Assembly (NCBI GenBank): GCA_015178975.1
Contig: WHVD01000042.1
Span: 239,501 to 303,500 of the forward strand
Direction: 5' to 3'
Origin: Hysterangium stoloniferum
Lineage: Eukaryota; Basidiomycota; Agaricomycetes; Hysterangiales; Hysterangiaceae
DNA: 64,000 nucleotides
Shown piece after piece: positions 18,638 through 63,163 of this stretch (positions are counted from its first letter, which is position 1; every line of letters starts with the position of its first letter). Under the pieces are notes generated by a model. That model did not search any database. It was given only the letters and a program-made list of their open reading frames with translations, and was not told the DNA's origin. Both the position numbers and the translations under genes were made by a program.

Positions 18638-18698
18638 CGACCGGAAATCCCGCCAGACTCCGGGCACTAACTTATACACACCCATTATCAGTTTATGG

Positions 18699-19388
18699 TG
18701 TGCGCGTGTAAAGGGTCGGGTAGTTTACTACTCAATGTGCGATTGTTATCGACTAACGATAGTACGATATACAACCGACTAGTAGTTTGAAGTGATCAAG
18801 TATAGATTACAATTGACCCTTAAGGTGCAATCGGTAAATAATTACAAGAGCGGATCGACCTTGCGATACGGTCCGATTGCATAGCTAGCTGAACTAATGG
18901 CCAAGTAGTGGAGAGAAAGTATATATTGTGAGGGAGAGAGAATATTCTAAGAACGTGAACTACGATGGATATTCTTACTGCACGAACCAAGAGGTAGAAG
19001 TCAAGTCGAGTGGTAGTAACTGACTTCGACTGTTTCAGTGCGAAGTGTAGTTACTGTAGATATAGTAAGAGAGATAGAGCGAAGACTAGTTTCAGACTAG
19101 GCCCCGAACCAGTACTTGCGTGTGCAGGTGATGGTTGTCGGGGTTGAAAGGTGTCTGAGTTTTATCCATGTGACTACTACCTGTGACATGTGCATACTTC
19201 TTGTGGGCGAGAGCGCCCACAAGCATACATGGACTCTCGAACTAAATAAAGGGGGTTTGACCCGTATTTATGAGATATAGAAATAGAATAAAAATATAGA
19301 ACATAAAGAGAATAATGAGATTATAAAGCGGTTAAGGAGTAAGGCTTAGAGCCTTTAACTGCACATCCTATATGACTTATCCTTCACA
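18699..19388 (+). repeat. LTR-E, 690 bp, left copy
   Basis: TG..CA-ended sequence from TGTGCGCGTG to ATCCTTCACA. An inverted copy of exactly the same length is at 30703-31392, about 99% identical, with differences mostly at CpG sites. It contains the near-palindrome CTTCGACTGTTTCAGTGCGAAG region and the CACCCACAAG-type motif shared with LTR-C and LTR-F, so the three are related. No target duplication is visible on either copy. Confidence 0.8.
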
Positions 19389-19751
19389 GTGCATGTGGGG
19401 CGTGGACGTGGTGTGTGTGCGTGCAGCGTAGATGTGGTGCGCGCGCGCAGGGCATGGATGTGGTGCTTGGATGTGGTGTGTAAGTGTGGGCATATGGGTG
19501 CGGCACATGGATGTGGGTGGGTGGGTGCAGTGTGTGGATGCAGGTGCAACAGCACAGGCATGTGGGTGCATAGGTGCTGGTATATGAGTGTGGCATGTGG
19601 ATGTGGGCATGCCACACAGGTGCACAAGTGCACAAGTGTACTGCATGGGTGTGAAAACACGCTGCATAGGTACGCAAGTACACAAGTGCACTGTGCGGGT
19701 ACATGAGTGCACTGTACAGGTATGCAATTGTGCTGCACAAGTGCACTGCAC
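19389..19751 (+). repeat. GT-rich minisatellite left of the BCS1-like fragment
   Basis: Degenerate short repeats. The first half has units like GCATGGATGTGGTG and GCGCGCGCGCAG; the second half has units like TGCACAAGTGCACTG and GGTACGCAAGT. Several frames stay open through it, giving Cys/His/Val-rich translations that are not proteins in their own right. Confidence 0.85.
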
Positions 19752-20461
19752 CGACTGTGGTGTTCCCTACCATCAAGGCTACCTTTTGCATGGTGTTCCA
19801 GGATCTGGAAAAACAAGTTTAATACACAGCATCACAGGCAAACTAGACCTCGATGTCTACATTGTCTCTCTTGCCAAAAAGGGTCTGGATGACTTGAGCT
19901 TAAATGAGCTATTCTGCAACCTTTCCAAGCATAGTATCCTGCTCATTGAGGACATTGACACAGTGTTCCAGCATGGTATCACAGCATGCATGGGACTTTC
20001 AAGATCGAATAGCAATCCAGAAGATTCAGATTTTGAGACAGATCTCGGTGGCAACTCTGATAGCAGTATTACACTTAGTGGGCTGCTCAATGCGCTGGAT
20101 GGGATTGTGGCAGTGGAGGGGCATATCTTGTTTGCGATGATGAATCAGTATTCAGCACTTGATGAGGCTTTACGGCATCCTGGCCAGTTGGATGTCCATG
20201 TGGAGTTTAAACATGCGACATGGTGGCAGATAAAGAAGCTTTTTAAGAGTTTTTACCCCCCAAGGAGTGAGAAGGAGGAGGAAGAGCTGAGGTGGAATAA
20301 TAGGCGGCCCAGGTCATGGTGGAAGTTGTTTGCATTCACTGAGGCAGAGTCTGAGGAGCTTGCTGAGAAGTTTGCGAATGCTGTGCCTGTGGATACATTT
20401 TTGCTGGTGAGTTTTCAGGGGCATTTGATGTTGTTTAAGGAACGGCCAGTGGATGCTGTGA
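19752..20461 (+). CDS. Captured BCS1-like AAA ATPase fragment, intronless
   Basis: About 235 residues of an AAA domain of the BCS1 family (mitochondrial inner-membrane AAA chaperone and its many fungal relatives). Visible parts: HQGYLLHGVPGSGKTSLIHS (Walker A), SILLIEDIDTVF (Walker B), an acidic insert of the kind BCS1 paralogues carry, then ITLSGLLNALDGI, the sensor-1 region FAMMNQ and ALRHPGQLD. A C-terminal helical part ends FQGHLMLFKERPVDAVN. The arginine-finger stretch reads HPGQ instead of the usual RPGR. The N-terminal targeting and BCS1-specific domains are absent. It is open without introns and lies in an open frame of 335 codons (19588-20595) that includes minisatellite on both sides. 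Lack of introns suggests capture from RNA. Whether a chimeric protein is made cannot be seen. Confidence 0.88.
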
Positions 20462-20600
20462 ATGTAGAAATGTGCGAGTGCACAACTGCACTGCGTGGGG
20501 GTGCAAGTGCACCGCACAGATACGCAAGTGTGCCATGTGGGTGCGCAAGTGCAGTGCATGGGTGTGGTTCGAGGGTGCACTGTGCAGGTGCATAGCACAT
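20462..20600 (+). repeat. GTGCA-rich minisatellite right of the BCS1-like fragment
   Basis: Units such as GGTGCAAGTGCACCGCACAGAT and GGGTGCGCAAGTGCAGTGCAT continue the same kind of repeat found on the left side. The captured fragment is therefore embedded in a minisatellite rather than beside it. Confidence 0.8.
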
Positions 20601-26315: not shown

Positions 26316-27023
26316 CCAGAACCCCTCTAACAGAGCATAGAACCCTGCTCCCATTATGGTCTAATGACTTGTCATGTTTCAGACCCCACTCCTGTTCCGT
26401 TCCATCCCTACTACCTAGTTTTATATTTACTTGTTTCATTTTATGTTTAATAGTTCTGCCCCTCATTAATACCGGATTTGGTATTATTACATTTCACTCC
26501 TTGTATGTACTGTCTGTGAAGAGTGGTAGAAGTTCTAACCATTCTATATACGAAGAATATCGACCGTTAAAGTACGATACCACGATGTATTGACTGTCTA
26601 AGTCTAATACGGACCGAACACGTATTGACTACTTAGTTCAATACGGTAGAGAGAAGTAGCTATCTAAAGTAAGGTAGATAGCTAGAACGAATAAGCAGAA
26701 TCGACTGGTTAAGTGCAATTCTGGACAACTGCTCGAGTGCAAGTAGAGTAGTTAGAGAGTCAAATAACAGAGTAGCGTGGATGTAGTCCACGCGAGTTGA
26801 GATAAGGATTGAGTTTCGACTGATACAGTTCGAAACTCAGTTTGAATGAGTAGCTAAAGCCCGTCTGTGACGGTCGAGACGATACACCAATCACAACTTA
26901 CAGGACACTAACGGGTGTCTGGGTAAGTTCGTGGTTGCAGTGTAAAAAGTGTCTGAGTTCTAATTGGTGCTGAGTGCACCCACAAGTATACACAATGCTT
27001 TGAACTAATGAAATATGCAATAT

Positions 27024-27397
27024 CACTAGAGGCACCTCAAGGTTTTTGGAGTTGGAAAACCTTCCAAAAATCCTACTATTTGGCCAAATTTTCTAGGAAT
27101 TCTTTGACTGATAAATTTTTTGAAAATTTCAAGTTTTAGTAGGATTTTCCAAAGTGGAAAATCATATTTGAAAACTTTAAATATTTGTATCAAAAAACTC
27201 TGACTACTGATGTTTCCTCAGATTTTGTGATACAAATATTTAAAGTTTTTAGATATGATTTTCCACTTTGGAAAATTCTACTAAAACTTAAAAATTTCAA
27301 ACAATTTATCAGTTCAAATAATTCTCAGAAAATCTGGCCAAATAATAGGATTTTTGAAAGGTTTTCAAACTCCAAAAACCTTGGGATGCCTCCAGTG
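27024..27397. mobile_element. 374-bp foldback MITE in the 3' LTR-F
   Basis: Ends CACTAGAGGCACC and GGATGCCTCCAGTG, flanked by TAT on both sides (27021-27023 and 27398-27400). It is absent from the partner LTR at 33,261. Nearly the whole length is an imperfect inverted repeat (TTTTTGGAGTTGGAAAACC against GGTTTTCAAACTCCAAAAA, and TTTTCCAAAGTGGAAAATC in both arms), with a small loop near 27,205. No coding capacity. Confidence 0.88.
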
Positions 27398-28739
27398 TAT
27401 TCGAAGAATATGAAAGATAGAAAAATATGAATAGAATATGTAAAATATAAATGAAATAAAAGGAGTGTTTTACCACAATGATACTGTGGTAAAAGCATAC
27501 TCCTCACAGTGCCCCCCAGTTTGAAGGGATGTGCTACACGAAGTTCTGGAAAGCTTCGGGGATGCCCCCCAGGTGTCTTGTTGGAAGCCCCCCAAAATGC
27601 AAGGTGCCAAGACCCCAGTATTTGAAGAGAGGTTGGTGAGTTTAGGGGCGGTGAGGGATGATATGTCGATGTGGAAAAAGGGAGGGAAGGGAAGGGGAAA
27701 AAAATAGATCCATTCTTTTCCTTCAGTCCCTAGTCGAGCACTCCTTCAGTCCTCGAACAGCAAATGGACTACTTGATAGCCTTCTAGACACTGCCACATT
27801 GTCTCCTTCCAGGACACGAGGCATTCCTCATAGTAGATGTCCTGTAGGTGGACAGACTGTCATGTAACTCGTTGGGCAGTGCATCTTGGGGTTAGGAGGG
27901 TAAGCTATCATTAGAGTCCATCGGAATCTCCTCCTCCTTAAATGAGTACCGGAGGAGGTTTATGATGCTTTGCTGTGGCGAGATAGTGTAAGACTCAGGA
28001 TTAGGATCTTTCCATGCTGCTAGTCTATGGGACCTAGCAGCATGTCAGGATGTATACCCTATACCCCCTATACCGCCCCCCACTTTGTGATATTGTGATT
28101 CCACCACGATCTCGCAAATTAACCATTATTGTGCACAGTTAGGTTGCAGTCTGTGTTCCCAAAAGGTCTAGCCCATGGTAGGTCTAGAAAGTGTCCAGGA
28201 ATGCTGCGAGTAGGTGGGCAAGTCCGGAGGAAAAAGAAAAAATCACGAAATTGACTGAGTTCAGTACGATTGTAATAATGAACCCGAATACGGCACTTGA
28301 GTTGGGTGTGTACGCATTCCTCGCTCCAAAATCCCAACACTGGCACATAACCACTTCTCCTGCCCCCGTCGCAGCCAAATTTGACATCACAAGTCATGCC
28401 TATCGAAAATGCATTCGTCGCTATGCCTAACGAAAGCACATGAACTGAAATCGAAAGTGAAAGGGGTGAAGGGGAAAGAGTCCCTGTCTGTTGGTGAGAC
28501 GTTGTCAGGGCATGGTGTTGCACAACCAGAGGGCTACAGGCACGTCGACATGTGTGAGAAGCACACTCGTGAATTTGACCGTGAGAGATGAGCGCATCAA
28601 CGCAACTCGCAAATTCGACCGCAAACGACGAGCGCATTGGCGGGCTCATGAACTCCATTAGAAGTCAGCATCCATCGGTGAGGTCATTGAAGCATGGTGT
28701 TGTGCAGCCCGTGAGCTACGAGCGCATCAATGTAGTATA

Positions 28740-30420: not shown

Positions 30421-31790
30421 CCACACCTACACAGCGCACCCACAAGGTGCACCTGCGTATCTGCGTGGTGTGCTTGCGTGGTACACTTGCACACCCGTGC
30501 AGCACCCCGGTGCACTCATCCACTCGTGCGGCGCACCCACATCCATGCGCTGCACCCACATCCATGCGCCGCACCCACATCCATGCGCCGCAACCATACA
30601 CCCTCACTTACACACCACATCCAAGCACCACATCCATGCCCTGCGCGCGCGCACCACATCTACGCCGCACGCACACACACCACGTCCACGCCCCACATGC
30701 ACTGTGAAGGATAAGTCATATAGGAGGTGCAGTTAAAGGCTCTAAGCCTTACTCCTTAACTGCTTTATAATCTCATTATTCTCTTTATGTTCTATATTTT
30801 TATTCTATTTCTATATCTCATAAATACGGGTCAAACCCCCTTTATTTAGTTCGAGAGTCCATGTATGCTTGTGGGCGCTCTCGCCCACAAGAAGTATGCA
30901 CATGTCACAGGTAGTAGTCACATGGATAAAACTCAGACACCTTTCAACCCCGACAACCATCACCTGCACACGCAAGTACTGGTTCGGGGCCTAGTCTGAA
31001 ACTAGTCTTCGCTCTATCTCTCTTACTATATCTACAGTAACTACACTTCGCACTGAAACAGTCGAAGTCAGTTACTACCACTCGACTTGACTTCTACCTC
31101 TTGGTTCGTGCAGTAAGAATATCCATCGTAGTTCACGTTCTTAGAATATTCTCTCTCCCTCACAATATATACTTTCTCTCCACTACTTGGCCGTTAGTTC
31201 AGCTAGCTACGCAATCGGACCGTACCGCAAGGTCGATCCGCTCTTGTAATTATTTACCGATTGCACCTTAAGGGTCAATTGTAATCTATACTTGATCACT
31301 TCAAACTACTAGTCGGTTGTATATCGTACTATCGTTAGTCGATAACAATCGCACATTGAGTAGTAAACTACCCGACCCTTTACACGCGCACACCACGTCT
31401 ATGCCCCGCGTGCGCGCACCACATCTACACCGCACGCGCACACACCACCTCCATGCCCCATGCATGCACATTCACCATATCCATGCGCCGCACGTGCACA
31501 CCACCTCCATGCACCATGCACACGCATGCCCCGCGTGACGTGTTGGTGCGCTCATGCAGCGTACTTGCATACCCGAGCGACGTGTTGACGTGCTCACACA
31601 GTGTGCTTGTGTGCCTGTGCAGCTACACGCTCATGCACTGCACCCAGCTCTCGACCGTTTCACTGGCGAAACTGGTGACATAGTCGTTTGCACGCTGCCA
31701 CACCCACATCCATGTGCTAACGTACTGCACCCCACTCTCGACTGTTCTATCAGCGAGACTGGTGACAAAGTCATTTGCATGCTCTTGCTG
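30421..31790 (-). repeat. Minisatellite with embedded LTR-E, right copy
   Basis: GT/CA-rich units flank LTR-E (30703-31392, reverse orientation). The repeats on its two sides begin with near-identical words (CCACGTCCACGCCCCACATGC and CCACGTCTATGCCCCGCG). This suggests that the LTR sits between repeat units rather than in a simple 5-bp target. 31,620-31,790 holds two copies of a module with CACTGGCGAAACTGGTGACA. Confidence 0.75.
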
Positions 31791-33155: not shown

Positions 33156-34133
33156 CAGCGTGCGAGGAGTTCTAGATAGCCTCTTGTATTTAGAATTTGA
33201 TAGTTGAATAAAAAAGAGGTTTTCTTCGTAGGGAAAGTACGGTCCAGCCCGGATCACCACTGTGAAGAGTGGTAGAAGTTCTAACCATTCTATATACGAA
33301 GAATATCGACCGTTGAAGTACGATACCACGATGTATTGACTGTCTAAGTCTAATACGGACCGAACGTGTATTGACTACTTAGTTCAATACAGTAGAGAGA
33401 AGTAGCTATCTAAAGTAAGGTAGATAGCTAGAACGAATAAGCAGAATCGACTGGTTAAGTGTGATTCTGGACAACTGCTCGAGTGCAAGTAGAGTAGTTA
33501 GAGAGTCAAATAACAGAGTAGCATGGATGTAGTCCATGCGAGTTGAGATAAGGATTGAGTTTCGACTGATACAGTTCGAAACTCAGTTTGAATGAGTAGC
33601 TAAAGCCCATCTGTGACAGTCGAGACGATACACCAATCACAACTTACAGGACACTAACGGGTGTCTGGGTAAGTCGTGGTTGTGGTGTAAAAAGTGTCTG
33701 AGTTCTGATTGGTGCTGAGTGCACCCACAAGTATACACAATGCTTCGAACTAATGAAATATGCAACATTCGAAGAATATGAAAGATAGAAAAATATGAAT
33801 AGAATATGTAAAATATAAATGAAATAAAAGGAGTGTTTTACCACAATGATACTGTGGTAAAAGCATACTCCTCACACTGTCAGCTCGAAATATGGACACC
33901 TGAATGAGTGTACGAGGATGCAGCACATAAGCTGAAGCCAAGTCCATCTCAGCATTACTCTCTGGGAATTATTCTGATACCACATTCCTTGTGCTAACAT
34001 CCTGGAAACTCCCTGGACTTATTACCTGGGAACTCCATGGGACATTCCTGGAAGAAAGTGTGTTTGGAATTAATTACCAGAAACCTCTGTGGGACTTCCT
34101 TGGAGCTTATCCTTTGTGTTCCAGAACTTAACA

Positions 34134-42984: not shown

Positions 42985-43061
42985 GGCCAGGTGGTGTAGT
43001 GGTTAACACCTTGCTATGCTGTATATGTGAAAGACCCTGGGTTCAATTCCCAGTCTGGCCA
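42985..43061 (+). tRNA. tRNA-like sequence, probably a pseudogene or SINE head
   Basis: Acceptor arms GGCCAGG and TCTGGCC pair over 7 positions (one G-U). The D-arm GTGT/ACAC has an A box (TGGTGTAGTGG). The T-arm CTGGG/CCCAG has loop TTCAATT and B box GGTTCAATTCC. The anticodon region between the arms is 26 nt, about 4 nt too long, and I cannot form a 5-bp anticodon stem, so no anticodon is assigned. With intact polymerase III boxes it could be a tRNA pseudogene, an intron-bearing tRNA or the head of a tRNA-derived SINE. Confidence 0.5.
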
Positions 43062-51807: not shown

Positions 51808-54800
51808 TATCATAAAATGAGCATGTGCTCTGGAGCCTCCAGGAGGCTCCAGCAGCACCAGAGTATTCAGAGAACATCACCCAGTTTCAAATGCTCTCAG
51901 AGCACTAAAGAGATGACAATATCTCTTGCAAATATTTTTCTCTCACTACTCTCACTACTTTATTTACTCTAGTTGTATTTATAATATTTACAAAAAATAT
52001 TCATTTAGAAAAATAAATTTAAGAACTTCAAATACAATTGTGATGCAAAAAGTGATTATTATTATTATCAAAAATTTGTATCACTAGTCACACAATTACA
52101 AAACACAATAAAAAATATAAGAAAAATAAATAAAAACAAGCCATAAACAATGTTCATGCTACAAGCAATGAAACAACCAGTGGAGTTGGCTGTCATGAAG
52201 ACATGTAGAGCTTGTTGTTATAAAAAATATAACCCGGTAAGAAGGACAACAGTAACAATACTGCATCTTCAAGCACAGCAGGGACAGTAATGTGACAAGC
52301 AAAAAAACAAGAAAGAAAAAGGAGAAACAGTATATTCCAGGCAGAAGTAAGGACAAGTGTGGGGTGAGGGCCAAGATGAATCCAAAGTGTCGAAGCAGAG
52401 ACAATGATGTGAAGGTGAAGGAAGAGATGTGTAGAGATGAAGGTGGGGAAGAGGAGACAAGTGTGGATAGTGCTAGATGTTCAGGCAGAGAAAGGATAAG
52501 GTCACAAAGAGGAAGGTGATGAGAGCATGAAGGGAAACTAAGTAGGGCCACACTGCTATAAGTATGTCACAGAATGTTTGAACCATGACTGGTATGCTAG
52601 TGTGACTGACACATGTTTATCACGTTATGTCACATTATTTCCCAGCAATATAGTGGCTCAGGGTTCTAGCCGGCTGTATCTAAATCTATGTGAATGTATT
52701 TACTCTCTCTCAGAGACTCTGGGAGCTAGTGTGTATCCTCTATAGCCTATTGAATAAGACAAATAAGGTTGCAAGTAATGAAACTCTGTTATATTTCTGC
52801 TTTAAATACTCTAGAAGTGATATTGGTACATTATCTGTTGTAAAATAATACATATTAGATGTTTTGCACTTTAAGCACTCTGAGAGTCTTTGGGAGTCAG
52901 CACCTATCCTTTAGAGCCAAAAAAAGGGATGGGAGCAAACCAGATCGTGGATGGCAGCTCCAGTGGCTAAACCACTTTACTGATGTGGTGCAAGTTGAGA
53001 TGAATGAGTAGTTATTAGAGACAAGGGTAGAAACCAAGTGGATGTGGACTGATTGGAGTGAAGTACAACGCTACAACATCAGTAAAGTGGTTTAGCCACT
53101 GGAGCTGCCAGCCATGATCCGGTTTGCTCCTGTCCCTTTTTTTGGCTGTAGAGGATAGGTGCTGACTCCCAGAGGCTCTCAGAGTGCTTAAAGTACAAAA
53201 CATCAATAATTTGTATTATTTTACAACAGATAATATACCAATATCACTTCTAGAGTATTTAAAGCAGAAATATAACAGAGTTTCATTACTTGGAACCTGA
53301 GATCTCTTCCTTATTTGTCTTATTCAATAGTCTATAGAGGATAGGCACTAGCTCCCAGAGACTCTGAGAGAGCATAAATACATTCACATAGATTTTGTTA
53401 AAATGGTAATTGAAACTTTAATGGATATTTGTGGGTAACTAGGTATTAGGCTGTGTATTGTTACAGTTGCTTAGTAATACTTAACCTTTTTGCTATCAAC
53501 CATATGTAACGATGCTCACTATCCTCTACTTTCAATAGGTTATGGGCCCTGAGGGCTTCTCACTCAGATTCGTCACTCGCAATTTGGTTCCTTCGAGTCA
53601 TAACTTGCTGTGTCTTGTTATTTACTCATCATATTCGGATCAACAGCCATATTAAGGCTTAGAAGCTGTTTTATCCACACAGTTTGAGGCATCTTGTTAT
53701 TTCCTCACTTTGGATTGGTGGGCATATTAAAGCATAGAAGCCACTGTATTTGCACAGTTGGAGTCTCTACTCATCATGTCTTGGTATTGGCGGCTGTATT
53801 AAGGCTTAGAAGCTGCGGTACTCACACAAATTGAGTCGTTACTCATCATATTTTGGTACAGGTGGCCGTATTAAGGCTTAGAAGCCACTGTACCCATAAA
53901 GTTCAAGTTACAACTCATCACATTTTGGTTTCATGTAATGCATCATTCATGTAAGCCCTTACACATGTAAGGCATCACTCAGTTTGCTACCCTTTGTTTT
54001 ATTTGGGTCCGCTGAGTCGTTATTTGTCATACCCTGTTTTTGCATAATACATCATTCGTGTAAGCCCTTATACATGTAAGGCATCACTCAGTTTGCTACC
54101 CTTTGTTTTATTTGGGTCTGCCAAGTCGTTACTCATCGTACCCTGTTTTTGTGTAACATATCATTCGTGTAAGCCCTTATGCATATAAGGCATCACTCGG
54201 TTTGCTACACCCATTGTTTATTTGGTTTTATAAGCCCTTGCACATGTAAGGTATCACTTGTTTTTCCCAACCCCCACTTTACCCATCTTGAAGGGTGTCA
54301 TATCCCTTCTAATTGCTCTCCACCGTATCAAATCAAAACACAGCCCATGGCATGGCATCGCTCTCAATTTGCACTCTGGAGATTACTGGAGATTAAAGGA
54401 GTATCACCATACCTAGGATCGAAGGAGTGTTAGGGAAGTTTCAATTAAAGGAGTGTGTTAAAATGGTAATTGAAACTTTAATGGATATTTGTGGGTAACT
54501 AGGTATTAGGCTATGTATTGTTACAGTTGCTTAGTAATACATAATACTTAGAGCACAAAGGGAAACTAAGCAGGGCCACACTGCTATAAGTATGTCACAG
54601 AATGTTTGAACCGTGACTGGTATGCTACTGTGACTGACACATGTTTATCACATTATGTCACATTATTTCCCAGCAATATAGTGGCTCTGGGTTCTAGCTG
54701 GCTGTATCTAAATCTATTGAAAGTAGAGGATAGTGAGCATCATTACATATGGTTGATAGCAAAAAGGTTCGACACTTTGGATTCATCTTGGCCCTTACCC

Positions 54801-55909: not shown

Positions 55910-55976
55910 ATAAATGAAAAAGAGATAGAGGTACTCCACAAATTGATGGTATCTCTGTTATACAATAAGTACATCA

Positions 55977-56587
55977 TGCACTGGGCCCTGGAACATGCCA
56001 AGTCCCACTCCTTAAAACTCTGGGAACAAGACTGGCTCCACCTCCCCCACACCAACCAAGCTGCTGTCACACTCCACAAACCCCCTGCTGTGAAACTCCC
56101 AAAGTTCCACAGGAATATGGTGGTCCCTGCCACATCCACACACATGTCATCCAGGCCATCTTGGGCCATGGCTTCTTCAGTGCCTACTACCAACATTTCC
56201 TCCCAGACCTCCCCACCTCCTGCCCTTGTGGCACAGAAGACATCCAGTCCCACCTCCACATCCTTTCTGAGTGCCCCCTTCACGAGGAATACCACCACAC
56301 CCTCTGCACTGCCTCTCAAGACCTATCGCTCCCCATTATCCTTGGCACCTACAAGGGCCTTGAAGCCCTAGCTGAGTTCATCGCTGCCTCTGACGCTTTC
56401 TGGAAAGCATAACCGGCCCACCATCCGCACCCTCCCCTTCCCTACATTTGACCCTCTTGCCCATACCAACCAGCTACATATGTACATATCCTGCCACCCC
56501 CACCTACCATTAGGGTGCTATTTCTCCCAACCACTATGTACCTTAGTTATGTGATGCGGTATATAAATGTATTAAAAATAAATAAAA
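55977..56587 (+). mobile_element. LINE 3' fragment (Tad-like), left arm only
   Basis: 5'-truncated non-LTR element with 10-bp target duplication AAGTACATCA (55967-55976 and 56588-56597). It encodes the end of the RNase H/zinc region: HGFFSAYYQHFLPDLPTSC, CPCGTEDIQSHLHILSECPL, then ILGTYKGLEALAEFIAASD and a stop at about 56,410. The tail is AATAAATAAAA. It has no partner in the right arm, so it is younger than the palindrome. Confidence 0.88.
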
Positions 56588-56633
56588 AAGTACATCACAT
56601 GTGGCCTAAATTTCAAAAATGCACATCACGTGA

Positions 56634-56895
56634 CCCTCCGCACTGCCTCTCAAGACCTATCACTCCCCATTATCCTCGGCACCTACAAGGGCCTTGAAGC
56701 CCTAGCTGAGTTCATCGCCGCCTCTGATGCTTTCCGGAAAGCATAACCGGCCCACCATCCCTGCTCTTCCCCGCCCTACATTCGACCCTCTTGCCCATAC
56801 CAACCAGCTACATACACATCCTGCCGCCCCCACCTACCATTAGGGTACTTTTCTTCCAACCGCTATGTATCTTAGTTATGCGACGCGGTATATAA
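56634..56895 (+). mobile_element. LINE 3' fragment, left arm, shared site
   Basis: 262 bp of the same LINE family, from within the final coding segment to the tail GCGGTATATAAA. It is flanked by a 19-bp duplication beginning AAAAATGCACATCACG (56615-56633 and 56896-56914). A LINE copy sits at the mirror position in the right arm. Confidence 0.88.
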
Positions 56896-57685
56896 AAAAA
56901 TGCACATCACGTGAAGGCGCCGCTACACGTCTAGCGACAACTAGTCTGAGGCAAAGTCGCTGCACCATAACATCAAATTATTACTCAGGTTAAACACAGA
57001 TCTCGCCTCAAGTTGATAAATGGCATACTTCCTTTAAGATACGTCAGGAGCACGTTCCCTTGTTTCAGCACATTATATTATAGAATCATTACTCGCTGGA
57101 CTTGTTAGTTGCGTCGGGAATAGCCTCGCGTCTTTCGAACTTCTTGCCTCATGTGTTATCTTATTTCGAGATTTAAATTTGAATTTGCGCCACAGTACTA
57201 GATGTATGGGGGTGGGAGCGCGATTCAAAGGATTATATTATTCTGGTTAAAGCTGCTCCCTGTTCGAATTCGGTAGTGTTGGTGAACAAGAAGGCCAATT
57301 TATGCATAATCTCCGAAAGTAATAAGTATCTCACATCTTCGTATTAAATTTTTTAAAATTATATATAAAGAATCTTGGCTGACATGAGCAATAGTTGTAA
57401 GAACGTAGCCAACAAAGGGCTTCAAAGGACTTCCAAGGGTATTTGATGGTAACACCACGTGACTAACTGTGACACGCCCCTTGTCTAAGTTAACCACACC
57501 TCCACATTTTGGCTAGTTTGGACAATCCTTGTTTTTTTCGCTTTGTGTGGAGAGGCTCAAATAAATAGAATGGGAAATAATAAATTAACTCTGTTGTTAT
57601 GCAAACAGTTGTCAGCACCTCTCTCTGTCTCTCTAAAGTTACATTTTCTCTGTCTCTCTAGTTTTATATTTCAATTCGCGCGACG

Positions 57686-59679
57686 ATGTCTAAGTCTCAG
57701 GTAGAACAGGATTCACTTTTCGAACTTGCAGACTACTTGAGCAAACTCTCTCTTTACCCCGCTATTAGTGGTCCCAATGCACCACCATTGCCTGCTCCCC
57801 AATACCGAAGTACCATGATGCCACTGACTCTGCAACCTAGAGGCTATCGGAGACTTCGTGACAACCATCGCGTCAATCTCATCAGTGGGGCAGAAAAATG
57901 TTTGTAATTCCTTGATGTTGCCCTTTACTCACAATTTTATTTTTGAATAGACTTTACGAAAATGACCGATGTCGATCAGACTCCCTTCTGTAATCTCGAT
58001 GTGCCACTCCAGAGGGACCTTACTGCAGCCTTTGATTACAATCATTTTATCATCGAATCTCCCACCGACCTAGTCCATCTTTTGGATCGGTTTTTATTTC
58101 CCTCTACAGATGCAATCTTGAAGGTTCTTGACGAGAGCCATGGCGAATGGTCCTTCAAGACAGTCGAGAGGCTGCGGACGGATGAAGATGGGACCCAGCC
58201 TCTACACCCGATACTGTTCTGCCGATCAGTGGTATCGGGAAAGCCACAATCCGTTAAAATGGTTATTATCCCTATCGGGCCTTGGGAGTTTGGTCAGCGA
58301 GATTTTGGTGACCTTGCGGGCGGAGGACTTGTAAGATCAGAATTGTTCTCCTTAGAGTCAATGATTTACTGACGACCAGCATAGTTTGACGATACGACAG
58401 ATTCGAATGCCTGGAAAATAACTCCATGGACAAATGCGGACAAAATGCGAGCTTATGTATATTTTTAAAACAACATTTTACTGTAACTTATAGCTCACGA
58501 TATCATCCTTAGCTTTATGATATTTGTCTAGACCTCGATTGTCCGTTTTTTGTTGTTACTTCCTACCATCTGTGGTCTTTTGGTCGTTTTTCTACTTGTG
58601 AGTGTTAGGCAACTTATTTTTCTTTAGTATCTGTTTTCATACTCGTCCCTGCGTCTAGATTATACAAGCGCCTGCTTTACATTACCCCTCCCTTTCAACA
58701 ATTCCCGTGTTTCAATTATAGGGATGCTTATATACTGGATTCATTCATCCTTCGGAAAGCAGCGATCATTCAATCTACCAACGGTGATTATTATTGTGCA
58801 TTTGAGACTTGTAAGAGATTTATTCATGGTCTGCAGATTGTAGCGGAAATGGGACTTGAGCCTAATTTCCTGGATAAGGAACGACTTGATCACTCGAAAA
58901 GGTTTCGAAACAGCTTTCCCAAAGATGTAGATGGGATAGATAATCAAGGATCCCAACCACCAAAACGACAGCGATTGATTTTGACAACAGAGGTTACTCC
59001 CGATCCTACAATTAACACTGCTCCCAACAACTACAAAGTCAAGGTCACCGAGACGCCTTCAATCATGGCCACTGATTCCTCTGGTTTATCCACTCCGATT
59101 ACTCAACCCGGTCTTCAACTAAATATTGTCTCAGGCGTAAGCCGCTACCGAAAACCTAATCCATTGTTGAGGGAGCTTCTTGCCCGTAAAAAGACGACGG
59201 GAAAACTGAATGCCAAGGGAATAATTCTCGGCAGTACTGACTCTGCTCCTTCGGATATTTCTTTCAGGTCGGCCTCCACAACTGTATCACGAGCTCCCTC
59301 GAGTGCTGATCCCCTGCCGGAGAAACTTATCCCCAAAAAGCGTAACGAGTTTTGTGAATCGTGGCGGAATATGGTCGCACTTGGAGGGGACATGCCTACC
59401 ACTTTGCATGTCCATAAAAAGGAGGTGCTACTTCCCGTGTCCAACCACTTCACGGGTGAGTGGAGTGGCGACATCGTACCGGTCACCGAAGATGACCGTG
59501 TTTCGTCAACTTCGAGTGTTTCAGAGTGTTCCTTAACTCCAGAGGAGCTCGCGGAGTATGCTCCCAAAGCAGATGTTCGTGACTTAGAGGATTTCCCTGT
59601 GCATCAGTGGCGTTTTGATTCCACTCCGGTTCTCGATAGCACCCGAGAAAGTGAAGATGGACTAAGTTGGGCATCTTAG
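57686..59679 (+). CDS. Hypothetical multi-exon gene, left arm copy
   Basis: A host-type gene with small introns. Exon 1 is 57686-57899 (MSKSQVEQDSLFELADYLSK). Intron 57900-57950 has a GTTTGT donor and GAATAG acceptor. Exon 2 is 57951-58330 (MVIIPIGPWEFGQRDFGDLA). Intron 58331-58384 has GTAAGA, a TTACTGAC branch and CATAG. Exon 3 is 58385-58456 (NAWKITPWTNADKMRAY). Intron 58457-58512 follows. Exon 4 starts at 58513 (LDCPFFVVTSYHLWSFGRF). The junction to the last exon is unresolved: the good donor GTGAGT at 58598 keeps frame only with an unusually short 30-nt intron. The last exon runs to 59679, with a basic PPKRQRL cluster (possible nuclear signal), a long Ser/Thr/Pro-rich middle and an acidic C-terminus (EDGLSWAS). 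About 590 residues. A CT-rich leader (57,617-57,668) precedes the ATG. I do not recognise the family; no catalytic motif is visible. The copy on the other arm is identical. Confidence 0.78.
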
Positions 59680-59795
59680 CTACTTGTACTATTGTAAAAA
59701 ATAGTAATTATCTTTTGATTCACTATAATACATGATCGAAAGTGGACATTGCATATTCGTCAAAGCACTGTCATCAAAACTCCCTTGTTCCCTAG

Positions 59796-59884
59796 TGGCG
59801 TTTTGATTCCACTCCGGTTCTCGATAGCGACGAGAAAGTGAGGATGGACTAAGTTGGACATCTTAGCCACTTGTACTATGGTAA
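59796..59884 (+). repeat. Partial duplicate of the gene's 3' end beside the axis
   Basis: 89 bp here repeat 59,608-59,697 (last coding codons, stop and 3' flank) with about six changes, for example GCGACGAGAAAGTGAGGATGG against GCACCCGAGAAAGTGAAGATGG. A mirror copy lies on the other side of the axis. It is a second, diverged 3' end, placed directly at the point of symmetry. Confidence 0.88.
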
Positions 59885-59900
59885 ATGATTCACTATAATA
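59881..59900. other. Unpaired spacer at the palindrome axis
   Basis: 20 nt (GTAAATGATTCACTATAATA) separate the two arms. TGATTCACTATAATACAT also occurs at about 59,717 in the arm (and its mirror). The spacer therefore looks like a piece of the flanking sequence, as expected if the fold-back formed by strand switching at a short homology. Confidence 0.85.
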
Positions 59901-60101
59901 CATAGTACAAGTGGCTAAGATGTCCAACTTAGTCCATCCTCACTTTCTCGTCGCTATCGAGAACCGGAGTGGAATCAAAACGCCACTAGGGAACAAGGGA
60001 GTTTTGATGACAGTGCTTTGACGAATATGCAATGTCCACTTTCGATCATGTATTATAGTGAATCAAAAGATAATTACTATTTTTTACAATAGTACAAGTA
60101 G

Positions 60102-62095
60102 CTAAGATGCCCAACTTAGTCCATCTTCACTTTCTCGGGTGCTATCGAGAACCGGAGTGGAATCAAAACGCCACTGATGCACAGGGAAATCCTCTAAGTC
60201 ACGAACATCTGCTTTGGGAGCATACTCCGCGAGCTCCTCTGGAGTTAAGGAACACTCTGAAACACTCGAAGTTGACGAAACACGGTCATCTTCGGTGACC
60301 GGTACGATGTCGCCACTCCACTCACCCGTGAAGTGGTTGGACACGGGAAGTAGCACCTCCTTTTTATGGACATGCAAAGTGGTAGGCATGTCCCCTCCAA
60401 GTGCGACCATATTCCGCCACGATTCACAAAACTCGTTACGCTTTTTGGGGATAAGTTTCTCCGGCAGGGGATCAGCACTCGAGGGAGCTCGTGATACAGT
60501 TGTGGAGGCCGACCTGAAAGAAATATCCGAAGGAGCAGAGTCAGTACTGCCGAGAATTATTCCCTTGGCATTCAGTTTTCCCGTCGTCTTTTTACGGGCA
60601 AGAAGCTCCCTCAACAATGGATTAGGTTTTCGGTAGCGGCTTACGCCTGAGACAATATTTAGTTGAAGACCGGGTTGAGTAATCGGAGTGGATAAACCAG
60701 AGGAATCAGTGGCCATGATTGAAGGCGTCTCGGTGACCTTGACTTTGTAGTTGTTGGGAGCAGTGTTAATTGTAGGATCGGGAGTAACCTCTGTTGTCAA
60801 AATCAATCGCTGTCGTTTTGGTGGTTGGGATCCTTGATTATCTATCCCATCTACATCTTTGGGAAAGCTGTTTCGAAACCTTTTCGAGTGATCAAGTCGT
60901 TCCTTATCCAGGAAATTAGGCTCAAGTCCCATTTCCGCTACAATCTGCAGACCATGAATAAATCTCTTACAAGTCTCAAATGCACAATAATAATCACCGT
61001 TGGTAGATTGAATGATCGCTGCTTTCCGAAGGATGAATGAATCCAGTATATAAGCATCCCTATAATTGAAACACGGGAATTGTTGAAAGGGAGGGGTAAT
61101 GTAAAGCAGGCGCTTGTATAATCTAGACGCAGGGACGAGTATGAAAACAGATACTAAAGAAAAATAAGTTGCCTAACACTCACAAGTAGAAAAACGACCA
61201 AAAGACCACAGATGGTAGGAAGTAACAACAAAAAACGGACAATCGAGGTCTAGACAAATATCATAAAGCTAAGGATGATATCGTGAGCTATAAGTTACAG
61301 TAAAATGTTGTTTTAAAAATATACATAAGCTCGCATTTTGTCCGCATTTGTCCATGGAGTTATTTTCCAGGCATTCGAATCTGTCGTATCGTCAAACTAT
61401 GCTGGTCGTCAGTAAATCATTGACTCTAAGGAGAACAATTCTGATCTTACAAGTCCTCCGCCCGCAAGGTCACCAAAATCTCGCTGACCAAACTCCCAAG
61501 GCCCGATAGGGATAATAACCATTTTAACGGATTGTGGCTTTCCCGATACCACTGATCGGCAGAACAGTATCGGGTGTAGAGGCTGGGTCCCATCTTCATC
61601 CGTCCGCAGCCTCTCGACTGTCTTGAAGGACCATTCGCCATGGCTCTCGTCAAGAACCTTCAAGATTGCATCTGTAGAGGGAAATAAAAACCGATCCAAA
61701 AGATGGACTAGGTCGGTGGGAGATTCGATGATAAAATGATTGTAATCAAAGGCTGCAGTAAGGTCCCTCTGGAGTGGCACATCGAGATTACAGAAGGGAG
61801 TCTGATCGACATCGGTCATTTTCGTAAAGTCTATTCAAAAATAAAATTGTGAGTAAAGGGCAACATCAAGGAATTACAAACATTTTTCTGCCCCACTGAT
61901 GAGATTGACGCGATGGTTGTCACGAAGTCTCCGATAGCCTCTAGGTTGCAGAGTCAGTGGCATCATGGTACTTCGGTATTGGGGAGCAGGCAATGGTGGT
62001 GCATTGGGACCACTAATAGCGGGGTAAAGAGAGAGTTTGCTCAAGTAGTCTGCAAGTTCGAAAAGTGAATCCTGTTCTACCTGAGACTTAGACAT
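60102..62095 (-). CDS. Hypothetical multi-exon gene, right arm copy
   Basis: Mirror twin of the gene at 57686-59679, same family comments. Exons by reflection: 62095-61882, 61830-61451, 61396-61325, 61268 to about 61184, and the last exon ending at 60102. All open frames in it, including antisense shadow frames, translate identically to those of the left copy. That means no base change or indel over the gene. The CT-rich leader (62,113-62,164) differs from the left copy at one position near 62,154, where the identical core ends. The two genes are convergent, with stop codons 422 bp apart. Transcripts that run past the axis would be self-complementary, so either copy could make double-stranded RNA; that is inference. 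Confidence 0.78.
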
Positions 62096-62835
62096 CGTCG
62101 CGCGAATTGAAATATAAAACTAGAGAGACAGAGAAAATGTAACTTTAGAGAGAAAGAGAGAGGTGCTGACAACTGTTTGCATAACAACAGAGTTTATTTA
62201 TTTATTTCCCATTCTATAGCCTCTTTACACAAAGCGAAAAAAAAACAAGGATTGTCCAAACTAGCCAAAGTGTGAGGTGTGGTTAACTTAGACAAGGGGG
62301 CGTGTCACAGTTAGTCACGTGATGTCACCATCAAATCCCTTTGAAGCCCTTTGTTGGCTATGTTCTTAAAACTATTGTTCCTGTCAGATTCTTTAGCCTT
62401 CTTGTTCATCAACCTACCGAATTCGAACAGGGAGCAGCTTTAACCAGAATAATACAATCCTTCGAATCGCGCTCCCACCCCCATACATCTAGTACTGTGG
62501 CGCAAATTCAAATTCAAATCTCCGGATAAAATAACACATGAGGCAAGAAGCTCGAAAGACGCGAGGCTATTCCCGACGCAACTAGCAGGTCCAGCGAGTA
62601 ATGATTCTATAATATAATGCGCTGAAACAAGGGAACGTGTCATTACTCTATAATATAATGCGCTGAAACAAGGGAACGTGCTCCTGACGTATCTGAAAGG
62701 AAGTATGCCATTTATCAACTTGAGGCGAGATCTGTGTTTAACCTGAGTAATAATTTGATGTTATGGTGCAGCGACTTTGCCTCAGACTAGTTGTCGCTAG
62801 ACGTGTAGCGGCGCCTTCACGTGATATGCATTTTT

Positions 62836-63066
62836 CTTTTTTAATACATTTATATACCGCATCACATAACTAAGATACATAGCGGTTGGGAAAAAAAGTA
62901 CCCTAATGGTAGGTGGGGGCGGCAGGATGTGTATGTAGCTGGTTGGTATGGGCAAGAGGGTCAAATGTAGGGAGGGGAAAGGCGGTTATGCTTTCCGGAA
63001 AGCATCAGAGGCGGCAATGAACTCAGCTAGGGCTTCAAGGCCCTTGTAGGTGCCAAGGATAATGGT
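62836..63066 (-). mobile_element. LINE 3' fragment, right arm, shared site
   Basis: The same LINE tail as at 56634-56895, in mirror orientation. It is flanked by TGCATTTTT words (62,828-62,836 and about 63,068-63,076), which are the reverse of the left-arm duplication. It starts about 35 bp further downstream in the LINE and keeps a longer tail. Being at the mirror position, it was probably present before the arms were duplicated; independent insertion at the same site is less likely. Confidence 0.8.
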
Positions 63067-63163
63067 GTGCATTTTTGAAATTTAGGTCTCGCGTGATGTG
63101 CTTATTTTACAACAGAGATACCATCAATTTGTGGAGTACCTCTATCTCTTTTTCATTATACAA

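Follow-up and report, generated by a model that had tools for sequence, protein, structure and literature searches.

How can two inverted copies of a gene be identical to the last nucleotide while the arms that carry them have drifted apart? This question is raised by a gene-bearing palindrome in Hysterangium stoloniferum, lying in a stretch of 64 kb (contig WHVD01000042.1 of assembly GCA_015178975.1, positions 239,501 to 303,500 of the forward strand), hereafter the window, in which positions are numbered from 1. All sequence results reported here come from this single assembled sequence. An original prediction, made from the letters alone, had explained the identical core by gene conversion between the arms, as in the palindromes of primate Y chromosomes. 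The reading favored here, to which we give a probability of about one half, is that of a palindrome of two ages, whose core was recently recopied in one event anchored at the axis.

Organization of the palindrome

Self-alignment of the window gave a single long inverted match, in which 57366-62395 aligns onto itself with 98.2% identity. No exact inverted match in the window is longer than the 2,253-bp core of this palindrome, the runner-up reaching 431 bp. The arms extend over 3,968 bp on the left (55913-59880) and 3,257 bp on the right (59901-63157), and they bear the same gene in inverted orientation, as do the arms of Y-type palindromes. Inverted homology ends at 55913 and 63157, past a piece resembling a long interspersed nuclear element (LINE) that is present in the left arm only, and the furthest outer piece (55913-55979, 67 bp) retains 94.0% identity. 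The palindrome is thus composed of the following parts:

55913-57627, plus strand: left outer arm, apparently the older part, with two LINE-like 3'-end copies and inverted homology to 62154-63157
57628-59880, plus strand: left core arm, aligned with the right core over 2,253 columns
59881-59900, no strand: spacer of 20 nt
59901-62153, minus strand: right core arm, exact reverse complement of the left core
62154-63157, minus strand: right outer arm, apparently the older part, with one LINE-like 3' end
57686-59679, plus strand: gene copy 1, with exons 57686-57899, 57951-58330 and 58385-58456 and a last exon running to the stop codon at 59677-59679
60102-62095, minus strand: gene copy 2, the same sequence as copy 1 in convergent orientation

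The right outer arm also contains an extra stretch of 41 bp (62640-62680), which reads as a tandem duplication.

Divergence along the arms

The arms were aligned contiguously from left position 56583 to 59880 against the right arm, the outer part being left 56583-57627. Between the two core arms (57628-59880 and 59901-62153), neither a substitution nor an insertion or deletion (indel) was found in 2,253 bp per arm. In contrast, 895 aligned columns of the outer arms contain 38 substitutions, together with 16 indel events. Hence, the original prediction was exact in the coordinates and numbers that it gave for the two arms, the 20-nt spacer and the core without mismatch or indel, and right that the outer arms differ by substitutions and many indels. 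All 54 events fall outside the core, which has a probability of ~3e-30 under uniform divergence; even divergence along the arms, one of the outcomes that had been named as contradicting the prediction, is thereby excluded. Within the assembly, the pattern is genuine and cannot be put down to chance.

The contrast holds when the LINE-like sequence is set aside. In the remaining outer part (56896-57627), 26 of 637 columns are substituted (4.1%) and 10 indels are found, as compared with 0 of 2,253 columns in the core (Fisher p 6e-18), where the upper 95% limit of divergence is 0.13%. Judged from this contrast and from the left-only insertion, the core arms are far more alike than the age of the duplication would lead one to expect. 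The same excess of identity in the core would also result from a late fold-back inside an old repeat. Selection on the protein was also considered as the cause, and is ruled out because the identity extends to about 420 probably non-coding bases of the core (58 bp ahead of the start codon, three tentative introns and 201 bp after the stop codon), among which 17 differences are expected (P 2.5e-8).

The outer substitutions comprise 29 transitions and 9 transversions. The C/G base of the transitions lies in the left arm in 15 cases and in the right arm in 14, an even distribution over both arms that rules out one-sided repeat-induced mutation.

LINE-like insertions and outer ends

Two insertions of LINE-like sequence bear on the age of the outer arms:

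55977-56587, plus strand: LINE-like 3'-end copy 1, confined to the left arm and bounded by 10-bp AAGTACATCA direct repeats (55967-55976 and 56588-56597)
56634-56893, plus strand, approximate bounds: LINE-like 3'-end copy 2, common to both arms (right ~62840-63065), with 7 substitutions in 215 aligned columns

At the site matching that of copy 1, the right arm continues without interruption, leaving an empty site at 63094-63103. The predicted arm lengths of 3.3-4 kb agree with those measured; this left-only insertion explains ~0.6 kb of the extra length of the left arm. The frame at 55969-56409 in copy 1 had no Pfam match, and the term LINE-like is a reading of the 3' tail and of the target duplication.

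The left and right versions of copy 2 share features against copy 1, some sites pair the right copy with copy 1, and both the 5' ends and the 3' tails differ between arms. Two independent insertions were considered; one shared insertion followed by small deletions would be simpler, while unproved. If the insertions were independent, the order of events proposed below would lose one step, and the main comparison (26 of 637 columns) would be unaffected, as it excludes these columns. Besides, the left-arm sites of both copies (55967-55976, 56588-56597 and 56615-56633) present, by eye, a CACATCACGTG-like target, which hints at a target preference of the LINE-like family.

The excess of transitions, their even split between left and right, and a left-only insertion facing an empty site on the right make the outer divergence look like natural ageing of both arms. 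Given these substitutions and indels, the identical core and the one-sided insertion, a young core lies between old outer arms in this assembly.

The inverted ends, at 55913 and 63157, would also fit a DNA transposon of the foldback type, the long terminal inverted repeats of which had captured the gene, and elements with such long repeats do exist. However, no transposase family was detected by Pfam in the four arm sequences scanned, no convincing target-site duplication was seen by eye at the ends, and no further copy of the outer ends was found within the window, the only place where copies were judged. Within this scope, none of the marks by which such a transposon would be recognized was found, and this origin is very improbable.

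Shape of the step

Divergence drops from ~4% to zero at 57627/57628, with no fading toward the core. Events in the outer part show no gradient in the direction of the core (Kolmogorov-Smirnov p 0.37), their mean position being 429 of 895 columns from the edge. Indels are dense beside the core, 9 of the 10 events of 56896-57627 falling in 57261-57627. At its other end, the identical tract extends to the axis of symmetry. Taken together, the single sharp step, the even outer events and the tract touching the axis indicate that one recent copying event anchored at the center suffices for the pattern.

These observations bear directly on recurrent conversion between the arms, which would keep the core identical in the manner of the primate Y while the outer arms escape. 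A homogenized core with older edges is what this process would leave; its tracts can be of suitable size, the mean (minimum) length inferred at human palindrome P6 being 2,068 bp (PMC3723533), and a possible second, smaller tract is present in the outer arm as an exact patch of 130 bp (56906-57035; longest event-free run 131, p 0.011, post hoc). Nevertheless, outer divergence is even right up to a single step, without an edge gradient, and a more graded edge would be expected from a long series of tracts with varied ends. Hence, of the conversion initially predicted, a young homogenized core within older arms is retained, while we regard a continued upkeep of the Y type as unlikely.

The center of the palindrome

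The sequence around the axis offers a possible starting point for such copying. Three features are needed to describe it:

59606-59698, plus strand: tail copy A, the end of gene copy 1 with the start of its 3' flank, 92.5% identical to 59794-59885
59794-59903, plus strand: tail copy B, a direct tandem copy of A that lacks 17 bp of A's 3' flank and crosses the spacer to the junction
59878-59903, no strand: putative fold-back junction, ATG at 59878-59880 facing CAT at 59901-59903 around a 20-nt loop

Each arm thus holds the 3' end of the gene (A) followed by the direct copy B. On the left, B continues through the spacer, which reads as its prolongation: positions 59886-59903 match 59716-59733, in the gene's own 3' flank, exactly over 18 bp. 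On the right, B ends at the junction. A short native spacer and an ATG/CAT microhomology are what a fold-back duplication would be recognized by, 3 nt being minimal. Both the continuity of the spacer and the microhomology are as expected if priming occurred by fold-back from the left arm. In contrast, a fold-back duplication should have arms of a single age, and the arms here are of two ages, so that a single simple fold-back is insufficient.

Among wild-type inverted duplications in yeast, a 5-bp repeat with a 35-bp spacer served in two cases of three; use of an imperfect 11-bp repeat with a 6-bp spacer is also described (PMC10622511).

The same center can be read as a late duplication of the gene. 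Old terminal inverted repeats would have surrounded a single gene, which a recent fold-back duplicated before the copy rejoined the far repeat by homology, with no conversion between pre-existing copies. This scenario yields the same two-age pattern and explains the fold-back signature at the axis, yet it requires an old repeat that reached within 59 bp of the start codon and still excluded the gene. We consider it rather unlikely.

Long palindromes are difficult to assemble, and this general difficulty favors the view that the inner palindrome is an artefact: the core arms would differ in the genome, or a single core would exist, and read correction or a chimeric read would have made the rest. 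Several features of the locus speak against it. The spacer matches the locus's own 3' sequence, the right side has a diverged outer arm of its own followed by a different flank, and the two other self-palindromes listed by the self-alignment (27019-27401 and 52682-53395) lack an identical core. Furthermore, three PacBio adaptor motifs are absent from 59701-60100, near the center, on which ground a fold-back at such an adaptor was rejected. An artefact of this kind seems improbable.

A two-age palindrome and the proposed recopying of its core

Given the assembly, the palindrome has two ages, a sharp step between them and an identical tract that touches the axis. Provided that the assembly is right, copying between the arms, that is, conversion in the broad sense, is well supported by the alignment. 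For the further details, namely a break at the axis, a single event, an exit by homology and the left arm as fold-back template, we infer the following course. An older inverted repeat would have existed long enough for its outer arms to diverge by ~4% and for one of them to gain a LINE-like insertion. At a much later time, the sequence of one arm would have replaced the inner 2.25 kb of its partner, a tract that begins at the axis and stops 58 bp upstream of the start codon. A break at the axis may have allowed a strand to fold back or to invade the other arm, copying would then have proceeded outward, and homology would have provided the exit into the older outer arm. As the left strand seems to have been read beyond the axis and then turned back where CAT could pair with the ATG at 59878-59880, leaving the 20-nt loop, the fold-back would have run from left to right. 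Such a fold-back at the axis could have founded either the whole palindrome or its inner part only. The order of events would then be the shared LINE-like piece, the inverted duplication, the left-only piece together with the point changes and, finally, the rewriting of the core.

Several points weigh against this recopying scenario. The 3-nt match at the junction is shorter than the repeats used in yeast and could be due to chance. The 130-bp patch in the outer arm could stem from an earlier, short tract of conversion, a weak hint obtained post hoc. A series of events that all stopped short of the old edge would look the same as a single one, and a late fold-back inside older terminal repeats would be indistinguishable in sequence from conversion between two long-standing copies of the gene. 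Lastly, the core may have been collapsed in the assembly.

Should the assembly prove correct, two stages in the evolution of a palindrome are preserved at a single locus, an old inverted repeat and its recent recopying from the axis. Given long reads and a few strains, such a locus could tell a single episode of repair copying apart from ongoing conversion in a fungus, a setting in which instability of long palindromes is expected.

Comparison with known palindromes

The arms of human Y palindrome P6 are much longer than the arms described here. In both cases, inverted arms would be kept alike through copying over several kilobases, but recurrent conversion at P6 was inferred from 378 Y chromosomes (PMC3723533) and a single sequence is considered here. 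Likewise, the Caenorhabditis F44E5.4 locus has arms of 2,207 bp, a 126-bp spacer and 99.7% identity, and paralogous pairs in that genus lie in near-perfect inverted repeats, convergently as here or also divergently; in the examples given, those arms are more alike within than between species, one having been lost in C. briggsae, a comparison for which one sequence gives no counterpart (PMC1803023). The yeast fold-back inverted duplications start from a short inverted repeat enclosing a small loop, as would the present palindrome. Their products are hairpin-capped and then dicentric chromosomes with telomere capture, in contrast to an interstitial palindrome with old edges (PMC10622511).

Among fungi, the pheromone genes of the Cryptococcus mating-type (MAT) locus sit within inverted repeats that intra-allelic gene conversion is credited with keeping identical (PMC526376, PMC12510652), and the authors liken them to Y palindromes (PMC526376). 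Those repeats measure ~500 bp, usually flank another gene pair, belong to the mating-type locus and were compared across lineages (PMC526376, PMC12510652), unlike the 3-4 kb arms, 20-nt spacer, single sequence and gene without family assignment found here. In the window studied here, several frames match transposon families in Pfam, namely copia-type gag, RVT_2, RVT_1 with RNase H and a Tc3-type transposase domain. Transposon-rich DNA also surrounds a very large palindrome of another fungus, described between 500 and 550 kb on chromosome 14 of Zymoseptoria tritici, flanked by Copia remnants and compared by the authors with Y palindromes; unlike the present one, it lies in an insertion virtually devoid of genes, and the available passages contain no test for a homogenized core (PMC3681731).

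Given these two cases, the claim that the locus has no fungal precedent fails in its broad form (PMC526376, PMC3681731). In a narrower form, the titles and abstract beginnings of the literature covered mentioned no comparable pair of genes in a fungus other than at mating-type loci, which is weak evidence of absence. It is doubtful that the locus is a fungal palindrome in transposon-rich DNA that converts recurrently and so keeps two gene copies identical outside the known mating-type loci.

The duplicated gene

One multi-exon gene per arm, as had been predicted, is plausible, and the gene could be modelled in part. Open frames and fungal-type splice sites, assessed by eye and by script, define two well-formed introns in copy 1 and a third with a good donor at 58457. 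The frame of the last exon is open for 339 residues from 58660; splicing between 58457 and ~58.7 kb allows 24 open combinations, none of which is preferred. The gene copies are likely, though not certain, to be intact.

Pfam returned no family for exon 2 (57953-58330) or for the joined N-terminal part of 250 aa, and two sub-threshold scores for the last exon (P0001; E 0.12 and 0.15). The last exon had no match in the PDB, where exon 2 gave E 0.23 and 0.73 only. No relative of the gene was found in the viral contigs searched, and in bacterial genomes one of 55 candidate stretches matched (L001, 39% identity over query residues 86-130), which was taken as chance.

Other features of the window

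The self-palindrome at 27019-27401 is imperfect, measures 383 bp and interrupts one copy of a repeat; the other copy (33260-33879) continues unbroken across the corresponding site (33755-33780), so that the palindrome resembles a small palindromic insertion of the miniature inverted-repeat transposable element (MITE) type. That at 52682-53395 measures 714 bp and has diverged arms, 89% identical over 323 aligned columns when split in half. A separate pair of inverted repeats (18696-19569 and 30533-31395) is 96.7% identical, with exact stretches of 431 and 170 bp, and diverges toward one end, which holds tandem repeats at 30527-30596. A frame at 19588-20592 (plus strand) matches in Pfam an AAA ATPase with a BCS1-type lid domain, and a tRNA-Tyr gene was predicted by ARAGORN at 42985-43061 (plus strand).

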